Shown piece after piece: positions 1-7,013 of a stretch of DNA of 7,013 nt (position 1 is the stretch's first letter; each line of letters begins with the position of its first letter). The stretch spans positions 1-7,013 of the forward strand of contig QMPB01000230.1 of the NCBI GenBank assembly GCA_003648395.1. The letters run 5' to 3'. The position numbers were made by a program, and so were the translations under genes. The stretch is from Bacteroidota bacterium (GTDB lineage Bacteria; Bacteroidota; Bacteroidia; Bacteroidales; UBA1556). The notes beneath the pieces are model-generated. The model saw only the letters and a program-made list of their open reading frames with translations, did no database searches and was not told the origin of the DNA.

Positions 1-3000
1 AAAAGCAGATTTAGATCAAGCTACTATTAATAAATTACGTAAGTTTGAATCACAATGGGATGTTTACACTAAAGTTACTACTGAATTTGGTAGAAAGATA
101 AGATCATTTGTAGCACCAAAGTTTTTACAAATTATTGAAGAGCCAACTTTGTTTAAGGAGTGGTCACCTGAAGAGATAGCAAAAGGTTTAAAAGGTTTAA
201 AGCTTGATTATCAATCTTTTGCGGCATATATGGATATTTTTGGCGAAGGTTCTAGTATGATGAAAGAGCTTGGTAAATCGTTGTCTTTTGCTTCGCGTGA
301 AGGATGGGATTTAATCAAAGCTTTCCAATTATTAGATCCGTCTATGAAGCAATTTAAGGAAAGTTTATTAAAAGCACTACCAGAAGTAACATTGGATGAA
401 GTCCGTAAATTTGAAAAATCTACTGGTACATTGGAAGATTTTAAAGATACTATTTTCGATTTAGCTAGATTCCCCACTGAATTTAAGTTAAAAATCCCTA
501 CCACTACGCCAGGCGCTAAGCAAGCATATGAAGAATTGTATATTCCTGGCGCTGCAGTTAGAAAAACATACCAAGAAGAGTTGTTAGGTAAAGCCGCACC
601 AACAAATTTAGGTCGTTATCTAGATAATCTTATTGCTGCTGCACAGAAAGTTGAGCAGTATTATAAAATGTTAGCGTCTGGAGGTGTGGGCAAGACTCCA
701 GAATTGCAAGAAAAGACTGTTACTACTATTAGGAATGCTTTGGTTGATGAACTTACTAAATATATAAAAACATTTAGAGTGTGGGAGCGGCAAGGACCTA
801 CTGAAGAACAAGTTGCTAAGATGTCTGAAGTTGTTAATAGATTTAAAAAAGCATTAACTGAAAGAGCAGCACCAGCTGTTTATCAAACTAGCGGTGCTAT
901 TACTGAAAAAGAAGTTGTGGAAGCATTAGAGCGTAATACTAAGAGTCAGTATAAGTATAGTACAGTGCTTGGACGTATTTCTGATTTATTGGTTGGGGCT
1001 AATCCTCAATCTTTAATAGACGAAGAACGTAAATTAACCGCAGCATTAGCTATGTATAAGCAAACTGGTAAAATACCACGTGAATTTGCTACGCCTCAGT
1101 ATCTTAAAAAATTACAATTTTTTGGCGGCAATTTTGAAAAAATGATTAATACTTTTCTTAGTAGAATTGAAGCTAAGAAAAAAGCTCCTACTATTTTTGA
1201 TATTGAATTAGAGGCTGGCAATTTAACTGAATTTGCTAAACGTATAGGATTATCAATACAAGAAGCTATTGAAGAGGCACTGAATCAAGCTAAGGAGAAT
1301 TTAAGTAAAGCGAAGGTTAGATATTTTACTGAGTTAGGTAAGAGTTTAATAGGTAAAAAGAAAGGTATAGAGGAAGCATTTTTTAGAAGGGTGACGCCAG
1401 CTATAACTGGTAAAGCTATAGTTGCTATCACTGATAAGACTCAAGAATTAGCTGAATTACTTGAAACTTTAAGAGACACTAAATTTGCTGTTGATTTAGA
1501 TATACCTGGTTTACATAAATTATTATACGATCTTAGAAAATTAAAGAGAGAACATTTTAAATATATTAAAAGAGCTAGGGAATTAGGGTTACCGGTTTTA
1601 CGTGAGGGAGAAATAGGTATATCTCCACACATGGCTCAGCGAATAAAAGTGCGTACAGGTGAAAGAAATGAAGAAGAGACTACTTTAGCAAAACTGATTA
1701 AGAAACAAGGCAAAGCTTTTGTAGAATCTGTTAGGTATCCATTTACTGGTACTTTAAGTGTACAACCTAGAATAGCTAGATTACTATCTGCTCTTCCTAG
1801 TAAATATGCGATAGCTGAGCCTGGTATGCCACAATTAGATTTGGCCAAATTGAATAAAATTATAGGCACATTGAGGGAATATGTTGGTGTTGTTCCTAGA
1901 GAAAAAAGAGTTTATTTATCAAAAGATATTAAAAGTTTAGTAGAACGTAGAGAGGAAGAGTGGGCCAAAGGCACTGAAGAAGGAGCTAAAAAAGCTAAAG
2001 CATTAACTGAAGCCATTGAAAAATTATTAAAAGTTATTAATGATGCTACACCTAAGTTTTTAGCACATGAACAAAAATTAGATTTTGACGGTGATGCATT
2101 GTTTATACATACTGGAGCATTAAAAGAATCACGTAAAGAGATAGAGGCTCATTATAAAGCATTACAAGATGATGTAACTTCTGTACGTACATTATTTAGA
2201 TCTGTGTTTACGGCTATTAAAGAGGGCGAAACTAAAAGTTTAGCTGAGATGGCGTATATTTTTGGTAAGAGACACCCAGCTGAACAAGGCTATGCATTTT
2301 TAACTAAACCATATATACGTGAGAAAGTAGCGAATTTAAAAATGCCTGAAGTTATGCAAGGATTATTTTCGTATCAAAGTGCTGCTAAGGATATTAAAAA
2401 AGGATCTAAAGAATGGAGAGAGGCTGTACAGAAATGGTCTAAAGAGTTTTTAAAAACAGAAATTTTACCAGAGGTATTTAGTAAATTTAACGTAAGCCCT
2501 GAGCAGCAAACGGAATATTTAAAAAAAGTTGATGAAAGTAATCATGGTTTTATTAAAGCCTCGTCAGGTTTGGAAGATGCTATTAATTCTATGGCTAAAG
2601 AATTGGTACGGCAACAATTATGGGAAAAGAAATATACTGATGCTATTTCTGGACAATTATATAAATTGCATACTGGCCAGACAGTAGAAGGAATAAGTCG
2701 ATTGTTACGTATTTCGGAAGTTGAAACAGGATTTGGAAAAGGTTTAGCAGGAACTGGTAAATTTGTTGCACCACCATCTCCTGAATTTTTAAAAAAATGG
2801 CCTAAAGCTAGTGTAGCTTTAGCTGGTAAACCTGTTGAAGAATTTTCTGCTAGAGTAAATGAGATTTTGCGTTTTATTATCCAAAAAGGTATGGACGTAA
2901 AACACGCTGGTGTAAAGGCTGTTGGGACAATTGTATTGGAGAATATCGCTAAAAAAGGCGGTATTAAAACTATTATGGAGGCTATAAAGAAGCATGCTGA

Positions 3001-6000
3001 TGATTTTGATGAATTATTAGATTTTGAACAACAAATAATTAATTCAGCTAAATTACGTTTGGGAAAATTATCCACTGAGCAACTAAAAAGAGAATTACAA
3101 CTATTCGAGCCTGATGTTGATTTGCAAACTTTATCATCTAATAGAGAAAAATTAATTAAACGTATTGTCAGTCATTTGGGGTTAGAAGCCACTTTTAAAG
3201 AGTTATATAGGCAAATAGAACGTCAAGCGATAAAAGCTACTGAAGTAGCATTAGCTAAACGATTGAAAGAAATGCCAGAAGGACGTACTAAAGCAGCATT
3301 ATTGCAAGATATTGCTGCAGCTGGAGGATTACGTCGTTTGGCTGAGGAGCGTGTGCGAAAACAAGCTGAGTCTGAACGTGGGATAACTATACCTTCTACT
3401 ATTGTTGCTAATTTACAACCATTATATCAAATGCGAACTAGTATGGAGACATTAAAATCTGTTGCTGGTAGGACGCGTGCAAAATTACCGATTGAACAGT
3501 TGATATTACCAAAAGGCGAGCAAGGGAAAGAATTTGCTAAACAACTTGAACAAGCTACAAGAGCGGCGCATGTATTGACTTCAGCTATGGAACAAGCAGC
3601 AGAGGCGCCTAAACGCGGTATGCATGGTTTAATGGTATTATCTGCAATTAAAACTAGATATAAAGAGTTGAGTGAAGTTGAAGATTTTGTTAAACAATTG
3701 CGTGGTACAGGTGGAATTACAGGTGGTCCTGGTAGTTTATTTGGAAATTTAGTAAAACAAGTAGCTGCTGAGAAGAATATTAATTTACAACAACGTTTAA
3801 TGGATGTTAATAAATGGTTAGAAACATTACCAAAATTAATGAAGGGTGTAAAATCTAAAATACAGCCTATATATGAAAAAGCCGGTTTACCTCCTTTGAT
3901 GCCTCAAGAAGAGGAGGCGATTAAAGCTGAATTCTTATCTAAAGCCGGGAAAAACATGATGGCTGTTGCTAGAGAGTTTGCACGTAGAACATTGGGTGGT
4001 GAGGTAAAGCCTGAGCAATTTGAGAAAACAGTAGCTGAAATTGCTAATTCTCTTAGTAATTATTATGAATTTATAGCTGTTACTCAAGAGAAGTTACGTA
4101 GAATTAGTGAAGTTGTAAAGGTAATTCCATTACAAAAAGAGTATATTAGAACAGCATTTAAGAATGTAGATCCTACTAAAAGCATGAAGGATTTTATTGA
4201 TAATACTCAAGAATTAAACCAGCAAATTATTAATAGTTATAATATAAGTTCTCATGAGGTTGAACAGTGGTATCAAGATGTTCAACGTAGGGATATTAGT
4301 AAACAAATTAAAGATGATACAGCTAAAACTAAAGAATTAGTAGATTCTGTATCCCAGGCTGCAGACGATTTAACTGAAGGATTAAGTGATGTCATTATTA
4401 GAAGAAAGACTAAGGCATTACGTAATTTGTTGAAAAAGGCGGAAGGTGGTCAACTAGCTGGACAAGAGACAGAGCTGTATAAATTATTTAGAGCCAGCGC
4501 ATTACATAGAGGCGGAACGTTTGCTGGTGGCCGTCAATTAGAAGCTGTTGTTTCCGAAATGGTTGGCGCGCCTAAAAAATATCCTGTATTAATGGAATTA
4601 ACTAGTGCACGTGGGACATTATTACATAGAAAAATACAAAAGGAATTTTTACAGAAGTTTCCAAAAGCTGAAATTGAAAAGCCTATTGAAGATTTTGAAA
4701 GTGGTATTACTGGTCATTTAGATGTTTTATATGAAAAAGCTGGACAAAAAATAGTAACAGATATTAAAACTATTTATAATACTAAAACTTTTAATAGACT
4801 TAAAGAGATAAGTGAAGATATTAAAAAGAGGCAAATATCAATACAAGATAAATTAAAAGAATTAAAATCTAAAGATATTATTAGTCAGGTAGATAAAGAT
4901 GTTATAAGACGATTAGAGGATTATTTAAGTCAGGTTAATGTGTATTTGAAAAATGTTGAAGGTGCAGTTGGAGAAATTTTGTTTGTTAGTACTCAACGAC
5001 CTGAGGAACGATTTACTATACCCATAGGTAAATTTGATCCGGCTAGATTTAAGGAAGATATTGAAACAGTTAAGAAAGCACAAAGTATTGTTGCATCTAC
5101 TATTGAAGCTATTAGAAATGGCGAACCTATACCAGAAGATTTATTTAAAGACATGCCAGAAATTTATGATTATATTACTTCACAGTTGAAAGAACTTGGA
5201 CCTGAAGAATTTATTAGAAAATTACCGAAACGGCCGGTTAATGAAATTAAAAGAAGCGCTGAAGAAATTTTAGGTACATTAACAGAGCAAGAGGCTCAAG
5301 CAGCTGAACGTTTAAGTAAAGAATTATTAGATTATTATAAACGTTTAGGCGGTACTAAAGGAGGGGAAAAGACATTTCAGCACTGGTTAGCCGCTGGACC
5401 TGCTGCTGGCGGTGGAGGTATGGGTGCTGTGCCTCCAGGCGGTGGAGGAGCGCCTCCGACTTATGGCCCACCTCCTGGTGGTGCTGGAGGCGGTACAGGA
5501 GGAGGTTTTGATGATGAATATTATAGGCGTATTAAAGATATTATTGCTAAAATTCAGCGTGGCCAAGAATTGAACAATAAAGAGAAATTACGATTATATA
5601 ATACATATAAAGAATTACAAGATATTATATATAGTATGTCTGATGAAGAATTAAATAAACAAATGCTTCAAACTCTTAAAGAAATAGAGAGATATATTAA
5701 TGAAGCTGGATTGACTGAAGCTAGTATTAATAAATTAAAAGAACAATTGCGGAAAGCGGGCGAGTTAAGAGGAAATATACCTAATTATGAAGAATTTAGA
5801 AAGTTTGCTCCTGAATATCATAAGTCTGCTAGACCTGAGGCTAAATTTAGAAATTTGAAAGCTATGTTTCAGGAAGCTGTTAAATATTATGGCTTAGGTG
5901 ATATTAAAGAAGGTAAGAAGTATAGTGCAGAAATATATGAATTATTAAAGAAAGCAAGGGAAGAAGGACCATCTACTGATTTAGCAAGGCAAATTCGTGA

Positions 6001-7013
6001 AGCAATTATGAAGCTTCCTGAAGAAAAACGTGGCGGATTAGTACGTATTTGGATGCTTTATAAGAAAGAAGTTGGGGAGTATTTTTTAAAACGACTGGAA
6101 GATTTGAAACAAAAAATTGAGGAAGAGGGATCTGGTCCAGAAGCTGAACGCGCATACCGTGAATTTGAAGCTGTTGTTAATAGATATATTAAGAATATAG
6201 AAAATACTTTAGGTCATACTAGTGATATTTATACTAAAGCTGTGGATAGTGCTAAAAAGACTGAATTTATAAGGCCTGATTTAGCTAAATTAGTCGGTAT
6301 TTATAGAGATCCTGAACAATTAGCACGTTTAATAGAACAACGTGCTATGATAAAGCCTAAATTTAAATCTATTTATGATATGTTGATAGGTGATTTAGAA
6401 GCTGGCGATGTAAGCGAAATGTTATCACCTATTGAAAAAGTGCAAGCAGCCTTTGATATGCTTGCTAAGTTAGATCCTAAACTTAAAGCATTAATTGAAG
6501 ATGCTGATTTATTACGTAGAATGGGCGATAAAGTTTTGAGTGCGTGGGATTTTCAAACATTATTAGAGGGAGTTACTCAATTACGGAATGCTTTGGAATC
6601 ATATAATAGGTTGCAAATTGGTGGGTTTGCCGGCCCCGCTGAAGAATTTACAATTGACGCTAGAAAGAATTTAGAAGAGACAATTAAATATTTTAGACAA
6701 TTAGAACGTACATTGTCAACATTAGGTACAAAATCTGAATTGGGGATTGTAAATGTACCTCAATTTATTGCACCAGAAGAACAACGTTTATTACATAAAC
6801 GTAATATAGCTGCTATACGTGAATATTTTAAGAAAGCTGCAGGAGAAGGTGGTCCACCAATAGGTAAAGCTTTTACCTATAAGTATAAAGTAATAGATCC
6901 AGCTACTAAACAAGTTTTAGACAGTATATCAGTTGAATTTAGGAAAATAGGGGAGGGAAGTTTAGAGACTGGTAAAAAAGTAGGCATATTTACTGAAAAA
7001 ACTGAAGATTTAA
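1..7013 (+). CDS. Giant virion-type RNA polymerase polyprotein of a crAss-like phage, partial at both ends
   Basis: One reading frame (first full codon at base 2) stays open for 2337 codons. Both the start codon and the stop lie outside the window. The frame carries a beta-prime-type RNA polymerase active site (DFDGD at residues 694-698, R578-x-P580-x7-Q588, trigger-loop-like Q961/M964/H968/G970) and, further on, a RecB/Cas4-like PD-(D/E)XK nuclease (H1542, D1574, D1587-I-K1589, Q1644/Y1648), followed by a Gly/Pro linker at 1797-1835. Single-chain two-barrel polymerases inside very large phage proteins are characteristic of crAss-like phages. In phi14:2 the homologue gp66 is packaged in the virion and ejected to transcribe early genes. 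I infer the same role here. Outside the domains the protein is Lys/Glu-rich and helical, with no signal peptide or membrane segment seen and no cysteine. Coding status is near certain, the polymerase assignment strong, and the phage group probable. It could also be a related, unnamed giant phage polymerase lineage. Confidence 0.9.
2..1381 (+). other. N-terminal polymerase region, residues 1-460, unassigned
   Basis: This stretch precedes the catalytic barrel and is part of the same reading frame. It is predominantly amphipathic helix by composition. One less helical patch lies at residues 160-200, with a KIPTTTPG segment and then ELYIPG, followed by a Gly-Lys-rich turn. In two-barrel polymerases (QDE-1, YonO, phi14:2 gp66) the beta-like barrel lies N-terminal to the DFDGD barrel. 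Part of it is therefore expected here or upstream of the window. I could not recognise the beta-like Lys-containing motifs by eye, so I leave the domain unassigned. Residues 401-460 are a continuous charged helix leading directly into the catalytic barrel. Confidence 0.5.
1733..1765 (+). other. R-x-P-x7-Q substrate-contact segment of the polymerase
   Basis: Residues 578-588 read RYPFTGTLSVQ. In bacterial beta-prime the corresponding segment is RAPTLHRLGIQ, whose Arg (R425 in E. coli) contacts the ribose of the incoming nucleotide. Arg, Pro and Gln occupy the same three positions in both, although the intervening residues differ. The preceding FVES (574-577) and the following R-I-A-R-L-L also resemble the hydrophobic flanks of the beta-prime segment. 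Confidence 0.75.
2081..2110 (+). other. Catalytic metal-binding motif DFDGD with conserved downstream His
   Basis: Residues 694-703 read DFDGDALFIH. The three aspartates D694, D696 and D698 are the ligands of the catalytic Mg2+ in multisubunit-type RNA polymerases and their single-chain relatives. In bacterial beta-prime the motif is NADFDGDQMAVH. The His lies five residues after the last Asp in both. The two residues before the motif are K-L instead of N-A, so the usual Asn is missing. The ESRKEIEAHYKAL helix that follows parallels the EAQxEA helix after the beta-prime motif. Confidence 0.93.
2636..2716 (+). other. Probable bridge-helix region, residues 879-905
   Basis: The segment runs from T879 through GQLYKLHTG (884-892) to the Arg-Leu-rich ISRLLRIS stretch. 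It lies between the catalytic aspartates and the trigger-loop-like motif, which is where the bridge helix sits in all two-barrel polymerases. A Lys, a small or Gly turn and a closing R-x-L loosely resemble the beta-prime TALKTANSGYLTRRL helix, but spacing differs by one residue. I rate this as positional inference supported by weak similarity. Confidence 0.45.
2870..2926 (+). other. Trigger-loop-like motif Q-x2-M-x3-H-x-G
   Basis: Residues 961-970 read QKGMDVKHAG. The E. coli beta-prime trigger helix reads QLTMRTFHIG at its core. Gln, Met, His and Gly coincide at identical spacing (Q961, M964, H968, G970). In the family the Met and His contact the incoming nucleotide and close the active site. 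The Arg following Met (R933 in E. coli) is Asp965 here. The motif lies about 263 residues after DFDGD, shorter than in bacterial beta-prime, as expected for the compact single-chain polymerases. Confidence 0.72.
2927..4471 (+). other. Post-polymerase helical region, residues 976-1490, unknown function
   Basis: This is an in-frame continuation of the giant protein. It is Lys/Glu/Gln/Leu-rich, mostly predicted helical by composition, with no catalytic motif that I recognise. Residues 976-1060 probably complete the polymerase fold after the trigger loop. A short Gly-rich break at residues 1235-1245 (GTGGITGGPGS, bases 3704-3736) may separate two subdomains. Residues 1395-1480 are highly charged and could form coiled coil. 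Functions open to consideration include structural packing in the capsid and template or DNA binding. None is shown by the sequence. Confidence 0.5.
4472..5101 (+). other. RecB/Cas4-like PD-(D/E)XK nuclease domain, residues about 1491-1700
   Basis: The motifs of the RecB/Cas4 branch of the PD-(D/E)XK superfamily appear in the expected order. They are GTLLH ending at H1542 and starting a helix, ITGHLDVL with D1574, the central hydrophobic strand IVTDIKT with D1587 and K1589, and a Q1644-x3-Y1648 motif in a helix followed by a strand (GEILFVS). In the family the Asp, the D-x-K pair and the His coordinate Mn/Mg and cut DNA, and Q-x3-Y is typical of RecB and Cas4 nucleases. An extra charged helical stretch of about 45 residues (1598-1640) separates the D-x-K strand from the Q-x3-Y helix. 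No cysteines are present, so the Cas4/AddB iron-sulfur cluster is absent. All key residues look intact, so activity is plausible. The substrate is unknown. Confidence 0.8.
5102..5389 (+). other. Helical connector, residues 1701-1796
   Basis: This charged, helix-prone segment joins the nuclease domain to the Gly/Pro linker. It contains several Pro-bounded helices (PEDLFKDMP, then an ILGTL...ERLSKELLDYY helix) and ends in a short GGTKGGEKT turn before the aromatic HW pair. No domain is recognised. It may be the C-terminal cap of the nuclease domain. Confidence 0.4.
5390..5506 (+). other. Gly/Pro/Ala-rich low-complexity linker, residues 1797-1835
   Basis: About 39 residues are nearly all Gly, Pro and Ala with an isolated Met, Val, Tyr and a few Thr. 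There are runs such as GGGG (twice), PPGGGG and PPPGG. At DNA level it is a GC-rich island of GGN and CCN codons inside an otherwise AT-rich gene. It is bounded by HWLAAGP before and FDDEYYRRIKD, a charged helix, after. The composition indicates a disordered flexible tether between the nuclease-bearing half and the C-terminal region. A processing site could lie here, but no protease motif is visible. Confidence 0.9.
5507..7012 (+). other. C-terminal visible region, residues 1836-2337, unknown helical domain(s)
   Basis: The same frame continues past the linker to the edge of the window. Residues 1836-1920 and 1995-2080 are strongly charged helices with coiled-coil character. Residues 2085-2200 form shorter Leu-rich helices. 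From about 2285 (PPIGKAFTYKYKVIDP) the composition shifts to alternating polar and hydrophobic residues consistent with beta-strands, suggesting that a new domain begins there. No catalytic motif is recognised and the domain is cut by the window end. Confidence 0.5.

Follow-up and report, generated by a model that had tools for sequence, protein, structure and literature searches.

A predicted PD-(D/E)XK nuclease lies between a putative virion RNA polymerase (RNAP) and the tape-measure core in giant tail proteins, and its sequence, its predicted fold and the comparison of family members support its being a removable module. The DNA analyzed here, which we call the window, is a stretch of 7,013 nucleotides forming a single open frame (positions 2-7012, forward strand, 2337 residues) with both ends open. 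Over its whole length it is 89% identical to residues 1425-3762 of a giant open frame in record G001 (IMGVR_UViG_3300033148_004505), its closest relative. An 8,613-codon frame in record G002 also matches the window, at an identity below that of G001. Judged from these matches, the window encodes an inner portion of a giant tape-measure protein of the tail in uncultured phages, with the domain order RNAP, nuclease, tape-measure core (PF10145). Its features are as follows.

1..7013, forward strand: giant tail tape-measure protein gene, internal stop-free part (open frame 2-7012)
1331..3253, forward strand: RNA polymerase largest-subunit-like region, residues ~444-1084 (AF2 model of residues 200-1100, VIA-align)
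2081..2095, forward strand: DFDGD catalytic metal-binding motif of two-barrel RNA polymerases, residues 694-698 (from LD[FY]DGD conservation)
2882..2911, forward strand: QKGMDVKHAG, highly conserved after DFDGD, used as search bait
4409..5167, forward strand: AF2-modelled stretch, residues 1470-1722
4583..5029, forward strand: predicted PD-(D/E)XK nuclease core, residues ~1528-1676 (AF2 model, fold matches)
4625..4627, forward strand: H1542 (41/41 sequences)
4676..4678, forward strand: E1559 (41/41)
4721..4723, forward strand: D1574 of GxxD (41/41)
4760..4768, forward strand: D1587-I-K1589, the (D/E)xK motif (position 1587: 40 D, 1 E; K 41/41)
4931..4945, forward strand: Q1644-x3-Y1648 (41/41)
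5387..5506, forward strand: Gly/Pro-rich linker, residues 1796-1835 (27 G/P of 40, by composition)

The linker divides the enzymatic half of the window from its tape-measure half; in the related proteins P0005-P0009 the richest Gly/Pro stretch precedes the nuclease instead, weakly so in P0008. The PhageMin_Tail domain (PF10145) lies outside the window itself. In the G001 giant frame it is found 3' of the window-matching region (E 2.5e-27), beginning at 33426, about 200 bases beyond that stretch, and tape-measure PHROGs match the same frame down to 2.1e-88. The G002 giant frame likewise carries PF10145 (E 1.8e-30). The tape core alone resembles the tape measures of 89 INPHARED records, 39 of which are Bacillus phages. 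Of the 6,909 codons listed for the G001 frame, ~6,901 are actual sequence, since an N run is present at base 42645 (G001:C1:42645, L007:2645), within the last 24 bases of the frame; the protein length of at least ~6,900 residues is hence a lower bound. The open frame that follows (L007:2668-3816) matches tape measures weakly (E 5.6e-6) and may be a continuation, so that the protein would be longer than listed. A tape measure spans ~0.15 nm of tail per residue; by this rule, G001 (~6,900 codons) and G024 (8,654) would predict tails of ~1.0-1.3 micrometres.

The AF2 model of the polymerase region has the predicted fold of an RNAP largest subunit: the VIA-align rows were largest subunits of Pol I-IV and poxvirus polymerases, with Z to 11.8, mostly across residues ~444-1084. 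This resemblance was shown only by the VIA second look, as Foldseek alone gave nothing significant with the model and placed the first RNAP at rank 16. The virion RNAP of Thermus phage P23-45 was not named among the VIA matches listed. The motif LD[FY]DGD was present in 22/22 sequences, the window among them.

The earlier note had described a complete RecB/Cas4-like nuclease domain at 4472-5101 (residues 1491-1700), and the six residues that it named do sit at their positions. In our AF2 model, a helix, three strands, helices and two strands follow one another in order, with a pLDDT mostly of 90-97 in this block. The model contains the alpha-beta-beta-beta-alpha-beta core on which the note had staked its claim, with extra helices before the QxxxY helix, and the fold matches agree. 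Conservation was assessed on 41 domain sequences (the window, two IMG/VR relatives, 16 database proteins and 22 record loci, some sharing a record), which form 32 clusters below 95% identity. Their pairwise identity has a median of 26% and a minimum of 19%, and 12/201 window columns are invariant. GxxD, (D/E)xK, the upstream H and the downstream QxxxY were nevertheless kept in 41/41 sequences and 32/32 clusters. The signature was thus borne out, in order and with fitting secondary structure, as was the retention of the D/K residues across homologues (D or E at 1587 and K at 1589 in all 41). E1559, absent from the list in the note, is also invariant.

The motif alone is weak, as it arises in 43/2000 shuffles. 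A chance motif was dropped on the conservation of the residues in all 41 sequences and on dN/dS, which between the window and its nearest relative was 0.057 in the nuclease domain and 0.066 overall; by this sequence comparison the domain is under purifying selection. Pfam had no relevant match for the domain in the window; its PDDEXK_1 profile matched 3/15 members at E <= 0.1 (best 4.2e-5), and PHROG 1706 matched 14/15. A search for standalone relatives, in which 7996 candidates sharing most words were scored, gave one match, a 286-residue protein on a 954-base contig that is probably a fragment. The domain contains no cysteines, in 15/15 members and in 41/41 domains, and therefore no Fe-S cluster; lacking the four cysteines of a 4Fe-4S site, it was dropped as a canonical Cas4. 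From sequence, predicted fold and family comparison, it is apparently an intact metal-dependent PD-(D/E)XK nuclease of the RecB/Cas4/lambda-exonuclease type. Because the PD-(D/E)XK superfamily also holds RNA-cutting members, its substrate is not readable from the sequence.

A search with the polymerase motif, which does not favour nuclease bearers, gave 28 records (27 viral contigs and one MAG contig), with the polymerase in 28/28 by construction, PF10145 over the cut-off in the same frame in 26/28 and the nuclease in 22/28. Where two or all three markers were found in a record, the frames were of equal length; an RNAP with DxDxD is hence fused to PF10145 in 26/28 records, as in a tape-fused virion RNAP. 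In the two records without PF10145 (G013 and G028), the polymerase runs near the contig end. One polymerase match (L040) lies on a contig binned in the Gammaproteobacteria MAG CSMAG_304, which hints only weakly at a host.

RNAP, nuclease and PF10145 occurred in that order in 22/26 records showing both RNAP and PF10145. The nuclease was absent from G005, G023, G025 and G026 (4/26 records with an assessable span), and the RNAP-to-PF10145 gap was 2548-2587 bp in these four versus 3205-3961 bp (median 3595) in the 22 bearers. Similarly, 17/20 giant proteins had the nuclease and three (P0011-P0013) did not; the gap between RNAP and core was 1013-1042 aa in the latter and 1297-1514 aa in the 11/17 bearers where both markers were found. 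A first profile had detected 13/20 and a larger one added P0005-P0008, the early count being a failure of sensitivity. P0001 (the window), P0002 and P0003 were found with a nuclease-region query and are bearers by construction, and the other 17 proteins (14 bearers) were found with a query region that included the nuclease. The record sets overlap (for example L1 with L041 and P0010 with L045) and include near-copies; clustering at 95% removes this redundancy from the 41-sequence set, not from the raw record counts. On a quick, midpoint-rooted tree of 48 polymerase rows, with long branches, nuclease-free rows stood, as judged by eye, at three places among the bearers (P0011, P0012 and a clade of five); how often the domain was lost (or gained) is uncertain given the long branches, the rooting and the near-copies. 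The nuclease is not needed in every host, given its absence from 4/26 records and 3/20 giant proteins. This scattered absence suggests a host-dependent role, for example in takeover or counter-defence, rather than one that all these phages require.

Both a tape-fused virion RNAP and a nuclease near a virion RNAP have precedents. P23-45 gp96 is a tape measure fused to a virion RNAP, which was demonstrated by experiment and sits inside the full-length virion protein (PMC10770324). Like the window protein, it is a giant tape measure with a DFDGD two-barrel RNAP toward the N terminus, the polymerase being followed by the tape measure; it has 5,002 residues, versus at least ~6,900 in G001 and 8,613 in G002. 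Neither the nuclease nor the RNAP profiles gave a significant match to gp96, so that no sequence relationship was detected with them, and the main text of PMC10770324 has no word starting with "nuclease", "exonuclease", "Cas4" or "RecB". Some crAss-like phages have PDDEXK domains in large transcription proteins, and these giants share the two-barrel virion RNAP system and the large multidomain architecture (PMC7886860). The likeness of the two nucleases is one of published description, and the passages of PMC7886860 do not state whether PDDEXK and DxDxD share a polypeptide; window-type proteins carry PF10145, whereas "tape measure" is absent from the main text of that paper. Polyvalent proteins share the general idea, in that a single polypeptide combines several effector enzymes and is presumed to be delivered along with DNA, and "Tape measure" and "RecB" are absent from the main text describing them (PMC5512222). 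Cas4 (SSO0001, 4ic1; Pcal_0546, 4r5q) differs in being encoded by a separate gene, window-type domains being cysteine-free and without the Fe-S cluster, and lambda exonuclease, LHK-Exo, MGME1 and the DinG nuclease differ as separate or helicase-linked enzymes.

In a literature search mostly outside subscription journals and bioRxiv, we found no fusion of nuclease, polymerase and tape measure, nor a nuclease within a tape-measure protein in passages of PMC7824862, PMC2147016, PMC6509639 and PMC13282480. The earlier note had thought the fusion of nuclease and virion RNAP undescribed; the crAss-like proteins are a partial precedent for a nuclease near a virion RNAP, and the novelty narrows to the union with a tape measure. 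Likewise, the nuclease does share a frame with the RNAP, as "embedded in the polymerase polypeptide" implied, but the setting is larger, namely a giant tape-measure protein. The observation in the note is confirmed and its interpretation partly supported.

We consider it fairly probable that the nuclease is a module placed between virion RNAP and tape core to act on DNA at genome entry. The giant protein would occupy the tail tube as the tape measure and, on infection, would be ejected ahead of or together with the DNA; presence in the virion and ejection are proposed here by analogy with gp96, whose ejection is itself a hypothesis of its authors (PMC10770324). Polymerase and nuclease would then fold where the channel opens into the cell, and there the polymerase would transcribe the first phage genes. 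The nuclease, most likely a DNase, would be active at this entry site with DNA as its substrate, most likely DNA ends or single strands, and its targets could be host, plasmid or defence DNA, or the incoming phage end.

Alternatively, the nuclease could work late, before tail assembly, processing phage or host DNA (for example to reuse host DNA or to trim replication intermediates), and would be found in the tail only as a by-product. Phage nucleases of the RecB/lambda-exo kind usually serve replication and recombination, and the structural gene block is normally late. In line with this, the G001 giant gene lies downstream of a gene for a major head protein, with other probable structural genes next to it; PHROGs on its 10 neighbours gave this one major head protein and one frame with weak tape-measure/tail matches, 8/10 frames having no PHROG match. 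However, the polymerase next to the nuclease has a known counterpart that acts at entry, and a separate late nuclease would need no fusion to a tail protein. We regard late action as unlikely.

The nuclease could also serve the polymerase: when the virion RNAP begins to transcribe the entering genome, it would trim or resolve R-loops, transcripts or the end of the template. This would agree with its location between polymerase and tape core in 22/22 records having it, and with the PDDEXK domains in the large transcription proteins of some crAss-like phages. Yet the nuclease is missing from three parts of the tree where the polymerase is retained, and the polymerase therefore does not strictly need it. 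Furthermore, a Gly/Pro-rich stretch on one or other side of the nuclease in many members suggests independence, and we hold such a service to be quite unlikely.

PD-(D/E)XK folds lose catalysis in some proteins, and the domain might be a degenerate fold serving only DNA binding or tape length; with the motif residues kept throughout, although clusters share a median identity of 26% and so few columns are invariant, this is very improbable. Although only metagenomic contigs are available and several records are near-copies, so that not all are independent, an assembly or gene-calling artefact joining separate genes is almost certainly not the explanation, and an assembly chimera was dropped, since the same order recurs in 22/28 records, in stop-free frames 2.5-8.65 thousand codons long, and the domain in 32 clusters, a repetition that speaks strongly against it.

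Such a fusion would unite in one giant protein the tail ruler, transcription at entry and a predicted DNA cleavage, functions usually thought separate. The phages concerned form a group for which we found no cultured member: INPHARED gave no match at E <= 1 to the window RNAP core, the nuclease and two divergent relatives as queries. The arrangement opens two questions to experiment: do tails deliver enzymes that fit the tube only when unfolded, and does a nuclease arriving ahead of any gene expression serve takeover or counter-defence? Lineages with and without the nuclease are natural comparison pairs.

Other enzymes were found in these giant frames. An RNase_T/DnaQ-like exonuclease lies near the N terminus of the G001 giant frame (L001:6575-6976, G001:C1:22788-23189, forward strand, E 5.4e-13), and the domain is N-terminal in the giant frame of 3/28 records (G001, G006 and G027); that of G002 had no RNase_T match. 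We counted this second nuclease-type domain in the same frame in favour of action at genome entry. Toward the C terminus of the G002 giant frame, the only one of 28 records to have it, is an Amidoligase_2 domain (L010:852-1337, G002:C1:20852-21337, reverse strand, E 3.1e-19 and 5.4e-17). A more tentative idea is that, in this large group of uncultured long-tailed phages, tape measures are payload rails, in which one chain would measure the tail and store enzymes (a DnaQ-type exonuclease in some, RNAP, a PD-(D/E)XK DNase, an amidoligase in one), be threaded through the tube and refold in the host; DNase and polymerase would arrive before phage gene expression and clear host, plasmid or defence DNA at entry. 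Finally, frames with similar cysteine-bearing N termini occur among the structural genes (L005:14931-16400 and 18154-19797, forward strand; L011:8643-10247, reverse strand) and, judged by eye, are possibly homing endonucleases.
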